Source of the DNA: an uncultured Collinsella sp.
GTDB taxonomy: Bacteria; Actinomycetota; Coriobacteriia; Coriobacteriales; Coriobacteriaceae
Direction: 5' to 3'
DNA: 5,770 nucleotides
Assembly (NCBI GenBank): GCA_938036665.1
Contig: CALHWR010000107.1
Location: 1 to 5,770, forward strand
Shown here piece after piece: positions 1,176-5,770 of the stretch. The number at the start of each line of letters is the position of its first letter. Positions within the stretch are counted from its first letter, which is position 1. A program made the position numbers and the translations under genes. Below the pieces are notes generated by a model that made no database searches, was not told where the DNA came from, and saw only the letters and a list, made by a program, of their open reading frames with translations.

Positions 1176-2201
1176 ATGCTCGCGTTCAACAACGACTATT
1201 CCCACGGTGCTCATCCGGCAGTGCTGCAGGCGCTCGTCGATACCAACATGGAGCCGCAGCCCGGCTACGGTACCGATGCGCACACCGAGCGTGCCAAGCA
1301 GCTGATTCGCGAGGCCTGTCAGGCCCCCGATGCCGACGTGTTCTTGCTGGTGGGCGGCACGCAGGCCAACGCGACGGTGATTGACATGCTGCTCGCGCCC
1401 TACGAGGGCGTCGTTGCCGCCGAGACCGGCCATGTCGCTTGCCACGAGGCGGGCGCCATCGAGTTTGGCGGCCACAAGGTGCTCACCATCCCCGGCTACG
1501 AGGGCAAGATGCACGCCGAGGATCTCGAGAACTATATCCAGGTGTTCTACGAAAACGAGAGCTACGAGCACACGGTGTTCCCGGGCGCCGTGTACGTGAG
1601 TCTATCGACCGAGTACGGCACGCTGTACTCCAAGGCCGAGCTCGCGGCGATTCACGCGGTGTGCCAGAAGCGCGAGATTCCGCTGTTTGTGGACGGTGCT
1701 CGTCTGGCCTATGCACTGGCGGCCGATGAGTGCGACATTACCCTGCCCGAGCTGGCGCAGCTGTGCGACGTGTTCTACATCGGCGGCACCAAGTGCGGCG
1801 CGCTTTGCGGCGAGGCTGTGGTGTTCTGCGGCATGCACGCTCCGGCGCATCCCATTCCGCGTATTAAGCAGCACGGCGCGCTGTTGGCCAAGGGCCGCCT
1901 GACGGGCGTGCAGATTGAGGCGCAATTTACCGATGGCCTGTATTTTGAGATTGGCCGACAGGCGATTCAGACGGCCCAGGCGCTGCGTCGTGTGCTGCAC
2001 GAGCGCGGCTACCAGTTCTTTTTGGAGACGCCTACGAACCAGCAGTTTGTGATTCTGCCCAACGAGGACATGGCCCGCATTCGCGAGCATGCGGCGATCG
2101 AGTACTGGGAAAAGTACGACGATACCCACACGGTGGTGCGCTTTTGCACCAGCTGGGCCACGACGCAGGAGGACATCGACGCGCTGGCGGCTGTCCTGTA
2201 G
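1176..2201 (+). CDS. Threonine aldolase family PLP-dependent enzyme
   Basis: The 341-residue protein matches low-specificity L-threonine aldolases (beta-eliminating lyase superfamily, fold type I), which cleave L-threonine or allo-threonine to glycine and acetaldehyde in the cytoplasm. The N-terminal FNNDYSHGAHPAV is the family's substrate-side start. PGYGTDAHT (about residues 29-37) and LVGGTQANA form the cofactor phosphate region. H86 in ETGHVACHEAGA fits the His that stacks on PLP, D173 in FVDGAR fits the residue binding the pyridine nitrogen, and K206 in IGGTKCGA is the Schiff-base lysine. The length is normal for the family. The ATG at 1176 follows AGAGAGGA with a 5-nt gap. A related beta-eliminating lyase or a serine/phenylserine-preferring aldolase cannot be excluded. 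The gene ends at a strong terminator, closing the transcription unit that probably includes the phosphatase. Confidence 0.9.
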   Translation: MLAFNNDYSHGAHPAVLQALVDTNMEPQPGYGTDAHTERAKQLIREACQAPDADVFLLVGGTQANATVIDMLLAPYEGVVAAETGHVACHEAGAIEFGGHKVLTIPGYEGKMHAEDLENYIQVFYENESYEHTVFPGAVYVSLSTEYGTLYSKAELAAIHAVCQKREIPLFVDGARLAYALAADECDITLPELAQLCDVFYIGGTKCGALCGEAVVFCGMHAPAHPIPRIKQHGALLAKGRLTGVQIEAQFTDGLYFEIGRQAIQTAQALRRVLHERGYQFFLETPTNQQFVILPNEDMARIREHAAIEYWEKYDDTHTVVRFCTSWATTQEDIDALAAVL

Positions 2202-2219
2202 CCTGATGTAATGACGAGG

Positions 2220-2262
2220 GGCCGCCTTGCGCTGGGTTTGGCGCAAGGCGGCCTTTGTTTTT
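2220..2262 (+). terminator. Strong intrinsic terminator after the aldolase gene
   Basis: A perfect 13-bp stem, GGCCGCCTTGCGC (2220-2232) with GCGCAAGGCGGCC (2241-2253), encloses an 8-nt loop and is followed at once by TTTGTTTTT (2254-2262). It begins 18 bp after the aldolase stop codon. The next gene starts only 16 bp after the T-tract, so this hairpin also forms the immediate upstream region of the acetyltransferase. Confidence 0.92.
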
Positions 2263-2278
2263 GAGAGAGAAGGGTTGT

Positions 2279-2869
2279 ATGACCGAGATGTCCGAGCCGG
2301 CGATTCGCCTGGCGACGCCCGAAGACGCGCCGGCGTTGCTTGCCATCTATGAGCCGTATGTGCGCCAGACGGCGATTACCTGCGAATACGAGGTGCCGAG
2401 CGTTGAGGAGTTCGCCGGGCGCATCGAGCGTACGCTCAAGCGCTATCCGTATCTGGTGATGGAGCTGGACGGGCGTCCGGTAGGCTATGCCTATGCGAGT
2501 CCGCTCAACAGCCGCGAGGCATACGACTGGTCGGTCGAGACGTCGATTTACCTGGCACGCGACGTGCGCCACGGCGGGCTGGGCCGCAAGCTGCACGATG
2601 CGCTCAAGCAGTGCCTGATCGCGATGGGCATCACCAACATGTGCGCGCTCATCGCCGTGCCGCACGACAAGGACGACGAGTATCTAACGCACAACAGCCA
2701 GGACTTCCATGCCCATATGGGATATCGCTTGGTGGGTGCTTTCGACCGCTGTGCCCAAAAGTTCGACCGCTGGTACGACATGTGCTGGATGGAGCTGGTC
2801 CTGGCCGAGCGCACCCCCAACCAGCCCAAACCAACCTGGTTCCCCGACCTTCCTAAACCTACCATTTAG
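2279..2869 (+). CDS. GNAT N-acetyltransferase, phosphinothricin acetyltransferase-like
   Basis: The 196-residue cytoplasmic enzyme should transfer an acetyl group from acetyl-CoA to the amino group of a small amino-acid-like substrate. Family features run in order: IRLATPEDAPALLAIYEPYV at the start, YDWSVETSIYL (beta-4 region), the acetyl-CoA pyrophosphate loop R97-H98-G99-G100-L101-G102-R103, and the C-terminal FHAHMGYRLVGAF plus WYDMCWMEL typical of the Bar/PAT/MnaT branch. In that branch substrates include phosphinothricin, methionine sulfone or methionine sulfoximine; which one applies here is unknown. The ATG at 2279 has GAGAAGGG four bases upstream; an in-frame ATG at 2288 is the alternative. 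A Pro-rich tail (NQPKPTWFPDLPKPTI) extends past the GNAT fold, and its stop codon lies within a small hairpin and repeat-like sequence. The strong terminator directly upstream means its own promoter must lie inside the aldolase gene, or expression depends on read-through. Confidence 0.87.
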   Translation: MTEMSEPAIRLATPEDAPALLAIYEPYVRQTAITCEYEVPSVEEFAGRIERTLKRYPYLVMELDGRPVGYAYASPLNSREAYDWSVETSIYLARDVRHGGLGRKLHDALKQCLIAMGITNMCALIAVPHDKDDEYLTHNSQDFHAHMGYRLVGAFDRCAQKFDRWYDMCWMELVLAERTPNQPKPTWFPDLPKPTI

Positions 2870-2884
2870 GGACAGGTTTATTTT
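2850..2884 (+). terminator. Weak terminator-like alternative hairpins spanning the acetyltransferase stop codon
   Basis: TAAACCT (2854-2860) pairs with AGGTTTA (2874-2880), followed by TTTT. An alternative, mutually exclusive stem pairs CCTAAA (2852-2857) with TTTAGG (2865-2870). The stop codon TAG at 2867-2869 lies inside both. The stems are short and AT-rich, so termination would be weak. Confidence 0.3.
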
Positions 2885-2890
2885 GGCAGG
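2866..2890 (+). repeat. REP-like sequence overlapping the acetyltransferase stop codon
   Basis: TTAGGGACAGGTT, then TTTTGGCAGG, resembles the second unit of the repeat at 5295-5339 (TTAGGGATGTTCCTTTT). GGGACA here also has a complement, TGTCCC, at 2960-2965. I think this is a member or remnant of a genome-dispersed intergenic repeat, but with two divergent copies in view that is a weak inference. Confidence 0.25.
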
Positions 2891-2922
2891 TTTTTGGCTG
2901 TCTTGTGGTATCAAATCGCCGC

Positions 2923-2950
2923 AAGTAGCGTGGCGTTTGTACGCTATTTT
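2923..2950 (+). terminator. Candidate intrinsic terminator for the acetyltransferase gene
   Basis: AAGTAGCGT (2923-2931) pairs with ACGCTATTT (2941-2949), a 9-bp stem with one G-U pair and a 9-nt loop, and the sequence runs TTTT at 2947-2950. A second tiny hairpin, GTCCC-CTC-GGGAC, follows at 2961-2973. This is a better terminator than the hairpin over the stop codon, but the T-tract is short and partly inside the stem. Confidence 0.35.
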
Positions 2951-2983
2951 GACCTGGATTGTCCCCTCGGGACGCCTTGCGGG

Positions 2984-3107
2984 CTAAGTGAGTAGACTTT
3001 TTTGGCGCAGGCCGAGCACAAAGCGTATCTGCCTTAGTAAAACCGCAGGTCACGGAGGTGGCTGTTTTGAATGTGCTCGGCAGCTCGCGAAAAGTCTACT
3101 CACTTAG
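2984..3107. repeat. 124-bp three-tier palindromic element (MITE-like or structured RNA)
   Basis: The outer arms are perfect 18-bp inverted repeats, CTAAGTGAGTAGACTTTT (2984-3001) and its complement (3090-3107). Inside them GCCGAGCACA (3011-3020) pairs perfectly with TGTGCTCGGC (3072-3081), and further in AAAACCGC (3039-3046) pairs with GCTGTTTT (3061-3068) with one mismatch. Three nested stems around one centre are far beyond chance. Terminal inverted repeats around a short non-coding core fit a miniature transposable element. No longer target duplication flanks it (GCGGG against ATTTA), but TA dinucleotides within the arm ends would suit a TA-targeting family such as IS630/Tc1. No T-tract follows on either strand, so a simple terminator is unlikely. 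It lies between convergent genes. Confidence 0.65.
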
Positions 3108-3258
3108 ATTTACGGTGCTGGATATTTTGGGCAGGAACAGTTGAGCTTGGGCGGCGAGTGTTGCCAGGCGATGTTGGCATTTGCGCCATGCCGGCTTGAG
3201 ATTTAATAAAAACCGCAGGTAAAACGTTTATTAGGTACATTTTGCCTCGTTTGGTGCG
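3108..3258. other. Intergenic stretch without a gene; repeated motif and weak AT hairpin
   Basis: No coding signal is seen here. It holds a second copy of AAAACCGCAGGT (3209-3220), the first being at 3039-3050 inside the palindromic element. A 7-bp AT-only inverted repeat, TAATAAA (3204-3210) with TTTATTA (3227-3233), surrounds this copy. On the minus strand it lies about 25 bp past the GntR gene's stop and could be a weak 3' end signal, but it has no GC stem. GGCAT...ATGCC near 3174-3191 is a minor hairpin. Confidence 0.3.
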
Positions 3259-3981
3259 CTAGCCGATGGGCTCGGTGTATTTGGCGCGGTCGGTGCGTTG
3301 GATGCGCTTGGAGACATGGAGCGGACGGCCGTCGGTGTCGTAGACGTAGTCGGTGATCAGGATCAGCGCCTGCCCGCGCTCGACGTTGAGCAAAAATGCC
3401 TCGTTTTGCGACGCATAGCACACCTCAAAGGTCTTATGCCCCTGCGCCGGCGCGCGATGGAACTCCTGGCGCAGCGTGGCGTAGAGCGAACCGTTGATAT
3501 CGCGATCGATGAGCGACCCAAAGCTTGGCGGCAAATAGGTGGTCTCCAGGCACAGTGGCGCATCGTCCAGGTAACGCAGGCGGACAAGTTTGACAAGCTT
3601 GCTGCCCACGCTAGCGTCAAAGAACTTGGCCACGCTGCCCATTGCTTTGGCAAAGCCCGAGTCCACCGTGCGCGTGGCGGGCTTCATGCCCTGGCCTTCG
3701 ACCTGCTTGGTATAGCTCGAAAACACCAGGTTGTTCTCGTGGAGCGCCGGTGTGTCGGCCACAAAGGCGCCGCGCCCGCGCTCGGTTCGAATCAGGCCCT
3801 CGTCAACAAGCACCTTAAGGGCATGGCGCACGGTGCTGCGCGACAGGCCCGATTCGTCCATGAGTTCCATCTCGGACGGCAGTTTATCTCCGCGGGCGTA
3901 GGTGCCGGCGGCAATGCGGTCGCGAAGCGTTGCCGCCAGACGCTCGTATTGGGTCAAGTTCTTTTTCGACGAAGTGCTCAT
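3259..3981 (-). CDS. GntR-family transcriptional regulator with UTRA ligand-binding domain
   Basis: The 240-residue protein has an N-terminal winged helix-turn-helix at about residues 10-75. Its GntR signature is GDKLPSEMEL (31-40), SRSTVRHALKVLVDEGLI (47-64) and the wing RGRGAFV (68-74). The rest, from about 90 to 235, has the length and pattern of a UTRA domain of the HutC/FrlR/TreR subfamily, which binds small effectors, often sugar phosphates or their amine conjugates. It is transcribed divergently from the SIS-domain deglycase, the usual arrangement for a local repressor relieved by the pathway intermediate. A TGTAT-motif copy lies 10 bp upstream of its start codon, suggesting autoregulation. 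The ATG at 3981 is the only reasonable start; its ribosome binding site (AGGTTG) is modest. Ligand identity is inferred from the neighbour only. Confidence 0.9.
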   Translation of the reverse strand: MSTSSKKNLTQYERLAATLRDRIAAGTYARGDKLPSEMELMDESGLSRSTVRHALKVLVDEGLIRTERGRGAFVADTPALHENNLVFSSYTKQVEGQGMKPATRTVDSGFAKAMGSVAKFFDASVGSKLVKLVRLRYLDDAPLCLETTYLPPSFGSLIDRDINGSLYATLRQEFHRAPAQGHKTFEVCYASQNEAFLLNVERGQALILITDYVYDTDGRPLHVSKRIQRTDRAKYTEPIG

Positions 3982-5179: not shown

Positions 5180-5215
5180 GGGATAGAGCGGCCTAACAGC
5201 CCAATACCCCTCATG

Positions 5216-5282
5216 AGTTGCGGTGGAATAGTTCCTGTTTGGGGGCGTGAAGCCTCTGTTTGAGAACTATTTCACTGCAACT
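5216..5282 (+). repeat. 19-bp stem hairpin 3' of the deglycase gene, fully paired as plus-strand RNA
   Basis: The 19-nt arms 5216-5234 (starting AGTTGCGGTG) and 5264-5282 (ending CACTGCAACT) pair along their whole length. The two non-Watson-Crick positions (G5222 with T5276, G5226 with T5272) are G-U pairs in plus-strand RNA but A-C clashes on the minus strand. Inside the 29-nt loop a second stem pairs GGGGC with GCCTC (one G-U). It begins 37 bp after the deglycase stop and is followed by GCTAGAGCGG, not a T-tract. A 3' mRNA-stabilising or processing structure, or a palindromic repeat, fits better than an intrinsic terminator. Confidence 0.5.
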
Positions 5283-5294
5283 GCTAGAGCGGCA

Positions 5295-5339
5295 CTTGGG
5301 GACGTTCCCTTTCTGCCGGCAGTTAGGGATGTTCCTTTT
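5295..5339 (+). repeat. REP-like repeat with palindromic core at the IS end
   Basis: Two similar 18-bp units, CTTGGGGACGTTCCCTTT (5295-5312) and GTTAGGGATGTTCCTTTT (5322-5339), are direct repeats (14 of 18 identical) with a 27-bp period, separated by the perfect palindrome CTGCCGGCAG (5313-5322). The first unit is itself almost palindromic (GGGGACGTTCCC). This looks like a dispersed REP-type intergenic repeat. It lies within about 20 bp of the inferred end of the IS110-family element, and REP sequences are known targets for several members of that family. Confidence 0.45.
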
Positions 5340-5372
5340 AATATGAGCAGGACATTGTCAAGAGGCAAAATC

Positions 5373-5404
5373 GGGCCTGGCCCCAACGATATGGGGTCAG
5401 GCCC
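5373..5404. terminator. 12-bp hairpin near the IS end, possible terminator
   Basis: GGGCCTGGCCCC (5373-5384) pairs with GGGGTCAGGCCC (5393-5404) around an 8-nt loop. The one irregular pair (G5380 with T5397) is G-U on the plus strand and A-C on the minus strand. On the minus strand GATTTTGCC follows, a short T-run that could end the transposase or guide-RNA transcript. On the plus strand TCTCCCTATA follows, which is poor. It could also shield the element from outside transcription or mark the IS terminus. Confidence 0.45.
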
Positions 5405-5657
5405 TCTCCCTATATCAACCCGTCCGCGGCGACCTCGGCGTGTCTTACCGACGCTCGTCTTTGCAGTTTAATATCCGCCCGTGGCGATCTCTCGCTGGGC
5501 AATCCGTTGCTACGGCTGAGGCTTCTACGTCGAACCGACAGTCTGTGCACGCGTGTGGCGCCCTGGGCGCTCGCAGAAAAGGGACCTGAGGTTCGCCTCA
5601 ACGGCTTCGGATCGAACCGCTTCCGGGGTGACTGGCTTATGTGCGGGGGACCGCCCC
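5405..5657 (-). ncRNA. Candidate guide RNA (bridge RNA/seekRNA) of the IS110/IS1111 element
   Basis: This 253-bp region after the transposase stop has no convincing coding frame but holds many small, near-perfect hairpins: 5477-5500 (GCCC/GGGC outside GCGA/TCGC), 5504-5515, 5529-5539, 5558-5570, 5587-5600 (TGAGG/CCTCA), 5600-5621 (nine pairs with one bulge, including one G-U on the minus strand only) and 5645-5658. A 17-bp direct repeat with three transitions lies at 5420-5436 and 5475-5491. In IS1111-group elements the structured RNA that pairs with donor and target DNA is encoded downstream of the transposase, as here. Position and structure density support the call; the true ends and any donor/target pairing loops are not established. 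Confidence 0.4.
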
Positions 5658-5770
5658 CTACGCCTCCTCGGCCATGAGGCCGACCGCCCACACCCAGCAG
5701 GCGAGCTCGCGCGCCGTGGCGACGTTCGCCTTGTTGCCGTGGACCCCGCGCGCGAGCAGCGCCTCCCGCC
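5658..5770 (-). CDS. IS110-family transposase, C-terminal fragment (partial)
   Basis: The last 36 residues before a TAG at 5658-5660 include the stretch GNKANVATARELACWVWAVG, ending GLMAEEA. This resembles the C-terminus of actinobacterial IS110-family (Transposase_20) recombinases, where a basic NKA segment precedes an ARELA/ARKLA helix followed by an aromatic helix. The protein begins beyond the window, so neither the N-terminal DEDD domain nor the catalytic serine of the C-terminal domain is visible. It would act with an element-encoded RNA to excise and integrate the element. The stop codon lies at the edge of a GGGGG/CCCCC hairpin (5645-5658). The assignment rests on a short fragment. 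Confidence 0.65.
   Translation of the reverse strand, partial: REALLARGVHGNKANVATARELACWVWAVGLMAEEA

Follow-up and report, generated by a model that had tools for sequence, protein, structure and literature searches.

Near one end of the window (the whole stretch of 5,770 nucleotides analysed here), a transposase gene on the minus strand comes to its stop codon and is followed by a long non-coding region, which raises the question of whether this region encodes the guide RNA of an IS110-family element and, if so, what that RNA reads. A preliminary description of the sequence had placed a transposase end and its stop just before the region, and this proved correct. The window terminates within the element and shows only the final 36 residues of the protein. 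The 36-residue peptide had a single plasmid match at E 0.1 or better, to an IS110 family transposase that is distant (54.5% identity). The protein of the full-length relative L060 scored above cut-off for the Pfam domains PF01548 (DEDD_Tnp_IS110) and PF02371 (Transposase_20) and for NCBIfam NF033542, "IS110 family RNA-guided transposase". D25, E71, D110, D113 and S286-G287 were invariant in 12 of 12 aligned transposases, among which a GL-P----SG pattern was present, and we read these residues as the DEDD and SG motifs. Through its full-length relatives, the element has the DEDD residues and the C-terminal Transposase_20 domain with the SG motif by which the IS110 family is recognised. A profile matched the C-terminal part of the IS621 and ISCro4 transposases (PDB 8wt6 and 9t56; E 1.3e-9 and 2e-10), a distant match confined to profile positions 184-311. 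A plasmid search with the full L060 protein returned 3403 records, all below 60% identity, which were not used for classification.

Relatives of the element were then collected. Searching named genomes with a degenerate pattern of the transposase end gave 22 stretches, including near-identical Collinsella copies (L004, L009, L011, L016 and L021) and further relatives labelled Eggerthellaceae, Gordonibacter and Rubneribacter. The stretch 5310-5770 was matched in 30 of 43 genomes from the same genus as L004, some of these matches being the short repeated target piece alone. In a class-wide search, 78 of 396 genomes had a full or partial transposase with an E value of 1e-60 or below, and 40 of these places were read out as loci. 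Viral contigs, searched with two DNA patterns, and phages gave no match, and the plasmid DNA search matched one host repeat.

Elements with defined ends were mostly about 1.53-1.65 kb long (1.72 kb for L160) and carried a non-coding region of about 280-405 nt after the stop, 3' of the transposase. The elements used had subterminal inverted repeats of 13-19 bp, with the exception of L132, a degenerate copy with 10 bp; in IS1111 elements these repeats are usually 11-13 bp (PMC11187229, available in part), within a range of 7-17 bp (PMC11208160, available in part). The repeats sit directly inside the left end GACG (GACA in L160) and the right end TA, GA or CA. The layout proposed in the preliminary description, a long non-coding region 3' of the transposase, was thus seen in full-length relatives together with subterminal inverted repeats, and both features are those of IS1111. 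The end extensions differ: empty sites give 4 bp at the left and 2 bp at the right (5 + 1 also fits), not the 7 (or 6) bp and 3 bp of IS1111 elements (PMC11187229). The transposase is also longer than those of the IS1111 elements with seekRNAs, at about 370 residues from a conserved first methionine and not 330-350 (PMC11187229). Since the IS110-family features and most IS1111 features are present and the extensions deviate, we classify the element from its sequence as an IS110-family, IS1111-like insertion sequence rather than as a certain member of IS1111.

End definition left 24 rows without an exact repeat pair; only L009 of these was used later, with hand-set anchors, which were likewise applied to L004, L016, L021 and the window. 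L007 was excluded for a spurious repeat, and L011, L025, L027, L028, L031, L047, L049 and L051 as duplicate copies of other loci. The guide alignment further excluded the duplicate copies L124, L125 and L141 and 18 loci whose ends were not definable by script. Several loci showed structures of their own. A sub-group of seven (L143, L144, L146, L150, L151, L154 and L155) has an 8-bp inverted repeat, and the left-junction GACG of every member is preceded by TA (ATA in L146, CTA in the other six). In two copies from genome G002, L062 (approximately 1903-3450) and L063 (same hit spacing), about 1.5 kb of other DNA separates the stop codon from the rest of the non-coding region; in L062 it holds a 403-residue minus-strand frame with a GLDVGK motif that by eye is another IS110-type transposase. 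L011 (1925-2576) contains two transposase C-termini separated by 544 bp that include an N gap, a tandem or misassembled pair of copies.

The right end of the element was placed by comparing copies with uninterrupted sites. Copies related to that of the window share CTCATATTA and the target bases and diverge to the right of them. L164, whose host side is 99% identical, shows the window's own site without an insertion, as TGCCGGCACA^AAAGGAACATCCC (the caret marks the insertion point), so that the empty site reads GGCACA^AAAGGAACATCCC. At the L060 site, 12 of 12 orthologues examined, from 21 near-full-length ones listed, were uninterrupted and read GGCAG(A/G)AAAGG, or GGCAG(A/G)AAAGGAACG at greater length. 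These uninterrupted sites indicate insertion without duplication and set the right end in the window at 5339. For the L095 insertion, the compared empty sites show several base differences from its flanks and do not settle the junction. The non-coding region therefore comprises 319 bases, and the interval 5405-5657 originally proposed was too narrow, leaving out a 3' hairpin that copies and empty sites place inside the element (Table 1).

Table 1 Features of the element and its target in the window
Feature	Position	Strand	Remarks
IS110-family transposase, C-terminal part	5661..5768	-	36 residues, read from 5768 to 5661; TAG stop codon at 5660-5658; remaining gene beyond the window
3' non-coding region, predicted guide-RNA source, to the right end of the element	5339..5657	-	Collinsella copies diverge just beyond; empty site in L164
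Outer helix P1 of the target-binding domain, 5' strand	5593..5601	-	Alignment A3 columns 19-28; 8 of 9 pairs with double changes
Top-strand target guide (T), TCCCTTTTCTGC	5573..5584	-	Complement of GCAGAAAAGGGA across the insertion point; scan z 5.7, permutation P 0.0015
Inner hairpin P2 between the target guides	5551..5574	-	5 of 8 pairs with double changes; 5573-5574 common to the T guide
Bottom-strand target guide (B), GTGCACA	5544..5550	-	Scan z 5.2, permutation P 5e-5; L164 empty site
Outer helix P1, 3' strand	5516..5524	-	Alignment A3 columns 127-135
Candidate left donor guide, ATATTA	5469..5474	-	Same as the last six bases of the element; identical in 27 of 28 elements
Terminator-like 3' hairpin with GATTTT behind it	5373..5404	-	Stem of at least 8 pairs in 31 of 31 distinct regions
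TTGACA, -35-like hexamer	5356..5361	-	17 nt before the left-end GACGAT in a predicted circular form; putative junction promoter
Right copy of the subterminal inverted repeat, ATGTCCTGCTCATAT	5341..5355	-	Left copy ATATGAGCAGGACAT in L004, L060 and L066; the window's own left end lies outside the window
Two-base right-end extension, TA	5339..5340	-	Empty sites and copies
Right target half, AAAGGAACATCCC	5326..5338	-	Part of a repeated Collinsella sequence; L164 empty site; sequence family in 23 of 43 genomes
Target-site sequence for the L060 ends and flanks, GGCAGAAAAGGAACG			

The preliminary description had rested its case on a high density of hairpins, and this premise did not survive comparison with shuffled sequence. 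The 253 nt of 5405-5657 fold like their dinucleotide shuffles (z 0.12 on the transposase strand and 0.70 on the other). Perfect stem-loops were in no excess, with two of at least five Watson-Crick pairs against 1.4 in shuffles and none of at least six against 0.4; with G-U pairs allowed, the transposase strand had five (4.3 in shuffles) and one (1.9), respectively. None of the helices predicted from the alignments is the hairpin at 5600-5621 to which the preliminary description had drawn attention. As the premise failed statistically, the interpretation was tested by comparison of relatives instead, in which covarying stems, the sign proposed for a guide RNA, did appear. RNAalifold on 16 regions gave 32 pairs, 15 of them with double changes, and in the target-binding domain of 26 elements double changes occurred in 14 of 21 pairs (26 of the 28 alignment rows; L160 and L162 were left out). 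For the 17 pairs of the guide-holding helices, 93.2% of cells were paired, compared with 70.3% after shuffling and at most 46.2% after sliding, and 84 cells carried double changes against 24.7 after shuffling, a result somewhat favoured by the prediction of these helices on the same alignment. The region thus has the conserved secondary structure around its guides that is expected of a seekRNA or bridge RNA. Rfam returned nothing at the gathering threshold. A conventional 3' untranslated region that carries a terminator and owes its structure to chance would agree with the unremarkable folding energy and hairpin counts and with the terminator-like hairpin, which in 21 of 31 distinct regions additionally has at least three T in the next eight bases; a terminator scan of the window (loop of 3-8, five T required) does not list it. 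The strong covariation of the helices and the similarity retained in Eggerthellaceae relatives argue against such a region, and we regard this explanation as barely credible.

We next investigated whether segments of the region follow the insertion sites. The 46 aligned non-coding regions represent 28 distinct guide sets, 27 of which have both flanks, and the guide set of the window was represented by L060 in the permutation test. Across the 27 guide sets, segment B matched 3.52 of 5 bases in its own target compared with 2.29 in re-paired targets (sd 0.17, P 5e-5), and the run of matches of segment T was 5.26 compared with 4.38 (sd 0.26, P 0.0015); because the elements are mutually related, the permutations are not fully independent. 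An unguided scan of 316-317 non-coding positions recovered the same segments. For pairing with the right target half (complementary strand), the sole position above z 4 was 5578-5584 (z 5.7), and bases 3-9 of that half gave 5580-5586 (z 4.3); with the left half as sense, the sole position above z 4 was 5544-5549 (z 5.2). Two opposite-strand controls of the position scan gave nothing above z 4. Individual sites show the same matches: the T guide has a 10-nt exact match to the L060 target, and the last five bases of the B guide are the left target half GCACA of the uninterrupted L164 site. At the window's own site, judged by eye, T pairs at 10 of 12 positions with two mismatches, and B agrees with the five bases that adjoin the insertion point. 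Both target strands are therefore matched by segments of the region, T before B as in the scan, and some elements match poorly: among the 27 guide sets, the T measure was 0 in L126 and L162, 3 in L012, L076, L081, L138 and L156, and 4 in L078, L080, L096, L142 and L160, all below the permuted mean of 4.38.

The similarity between guides and targets could in principle be a by-product of common ancestry or of a captured target rather than of pairing, given that the elements are interrelated and many targets are A-rich. The permutation was made among the same elements and retains their common A-rich background, the two segments match opposite strands in fixed registers flanking a covarying hairpin, they differ between close relatives such as L095, L099 and L142, and neither another non-coding position nor a wrong-strand control passes z 4; we consider a by-product very unlikely. 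The alignments speak clearly for two guide segments that change together with the insertion sites, that is, for natural reprogramming. Transcribed from the minus strand, 5339-5657 very probably yields a guide RNA of the bridge or seek type, whose guides, 5573-5584 and 5544-5550, would each pair with one strand of the target.

The target itself is a repeated sequence in the genus, as GGCANAAAAGGNACRTCCC occurs in 23 of 43 genomes and in 22 of those 23 at four or more copies. A second unit resembling the target lies at about 5291-5316 of the window. In the L095 comparison, terminator-like sites were seen in relatives. A stem of at least seven pairs starting within 10 nt was present in 22 of 43 right flanks, compared with 33.4% of 4608 control windows (nominal P 0.012, for sites that are not independent), and by folding energy 16 of 41 sites ranked within the top fifth of their own flank for stability. 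These figures are suggestive only of intrinsic terminators being chosen as targets. Flank hairpins often stand behind an A-tract, as if the insertion had hit the T-tract belonging to a terminator oriented towards the element.

Other repeats were also observed in the window. The intergenic stretch 60-240 resembles by eye a repeat of about 130 bp that is found many times per Collinsella genome and forms the left flank of L095. Positions 5206-5283 hold an inverted-repeat element with 19-bp arms, which matches at four places in one C. aerofaciens record and at many in Collinsella genomes. At 2984-3107, CTAAGTGAGTAGACTTTT (2984-3001) and its reverse complement (3090-3107) enclose the inverted pair GCCGAGCACA and TGTGCTCGGC, possibly a small mobile or attenuator-like element.

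A further segment of the region follows the element itself. In 27 of 28 elements (P 1.5e-5), the segment equivalent to 5469-5474 is identical to the six bases that close the element, suggesting that it may serve as a left donor guide. In 23 of the 28, ATATTA stands in both places, and only one position of the segment varies; of the five elements with a variant letter, L018, L135, L160 and L162 carry it in both places and L156 in the segment only. A later set of 19 held-out loci included nine without an end pair, and the segment was identical to the end in nine of the ten with readable ends, all of them ATATCA or ATATGA; the exception was L146, and the set includes close relatives (L150 and L151 from one genome, L158 and L159 from another). 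The sub-group with the 8-bp repeat has this identity, save for L146. A right donor guide, the complement of GACG, was looked for and was not consistently present in the elements. The region thus has two segments that match and covary with the target and another that matches the right end of the element, as the preliminary description had anticipated for loops of a guide RNA, and its proposal of a candidate bridge RNA or seekRNA is supported by this comparison of relatives, not by the hairpin count.

It is possible, if rather unlikely, that the RNA reads the target only, as a seekRNA in the narrow sense, with the transposase recognising the ends through their inverted repeats and the resemblance at 5469-5474 caused otherwise. 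An 82-nt seekRNA of ISEc11 suffices for movement (PMC11187229), and both the missing consistency of a right donor guide and the single variable position of the putative left one would agree with this. Against it stand the four of five variant-letter elements that match their own right end and the nine of ten later loci, some of them close relatives. On balance we favour a Coriobacteriia-wide, IS1111-like lineage in which a single 3' RNA would read the right end of its own element as well as the target, so that donor-end recognition of the IS1111 type would be at least partly RNA-guided; natural re-aiming would have given this lineage at least 27 guide sets, many of which point to A-tracts next to repeats or to hairpins resembling terminators.

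These features can be combined into a conditional scheme of movement. Once excised as a circle, the element would have a promoter at its junction, composed of the right-end TTGACA and the -10-like GACGAT from the left end; TTGAC is present in 46 of 46 aligned regions. No promoter was detected when 5180-5770 was scanned, which would fit a -10 box situated at the opposite end of the element. The junction promoter would transcribe the transposase and the RNA, ending near the 5373-5404 hairpin, and the transposase would bind the RNA. The RNA may then bring the circle junction, read through 5469-5474, to the target GGCACA^AAAGGAAC, where the element would insert without duplicating bases.

The phrase "undescribed RNA-guided recombinase" in the preliminary description was too strong, as seekRNAs of IS1111 and bridge RNAs of IS110 elements have been published (PMC11187229, PMC11208160). 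With the IS1111 elements ISEc11, ISPa11, ISKpn4 and ISPst6, as described in the available part of PMC11187229, the element shares the long non-coding region 3' of the transposase, the subterminal inverted repeats, the order of a top-strand guide 5' of a bottom-strand guide with overlap of the guides in the target, insertion without target duplication, and natural reprogramming; ISPa11 likewise targets a repeated extragenic sequence. In the same source, target matches are reported for IS1111-type RNAs and end binding is called unknown, and we found there no report for a seekRNA of a segment that tracks the element's own right end as it does here. Like the bridge RNA of IS621, an IS110 element (PMC11208160), the predicted RNA has two target guides for the two strands, guide-target covariation across orthologues and, in a second region, a sense copy of the left donor end, which in IS621 is the left donor guide. 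Unlike that bridge RNA, it lies 3' of the gene with the guide order of IS1111 elements, and a right donor guide to accompany the left one is not consistent among the elements. Potential donor-binding nucleotides have been predicted in many IS1111 RNAs, and a covariation test limited to IS1111 RNAs was not found in the part of PMC11208160 available. A search by titles and the starts of abstracts found no publication on this lineage, which is weak evidence of absence, as subscription journals and preprints were mostly outside its coverage.

The element is predicted to add one naturally re-aimed member to a known kind of RNA-guided recombinase. Because 5469-5474 and the right end vary together in nature, one can test directly whether IS1111-type RNAs read the ends of their elements. 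Programmable recombinases of the Coriobacteriia could be studied, and perhaps put to use, with the 27 natural guide/target pairs, which differ from one another and have mapped guides, as a ready-made panel.
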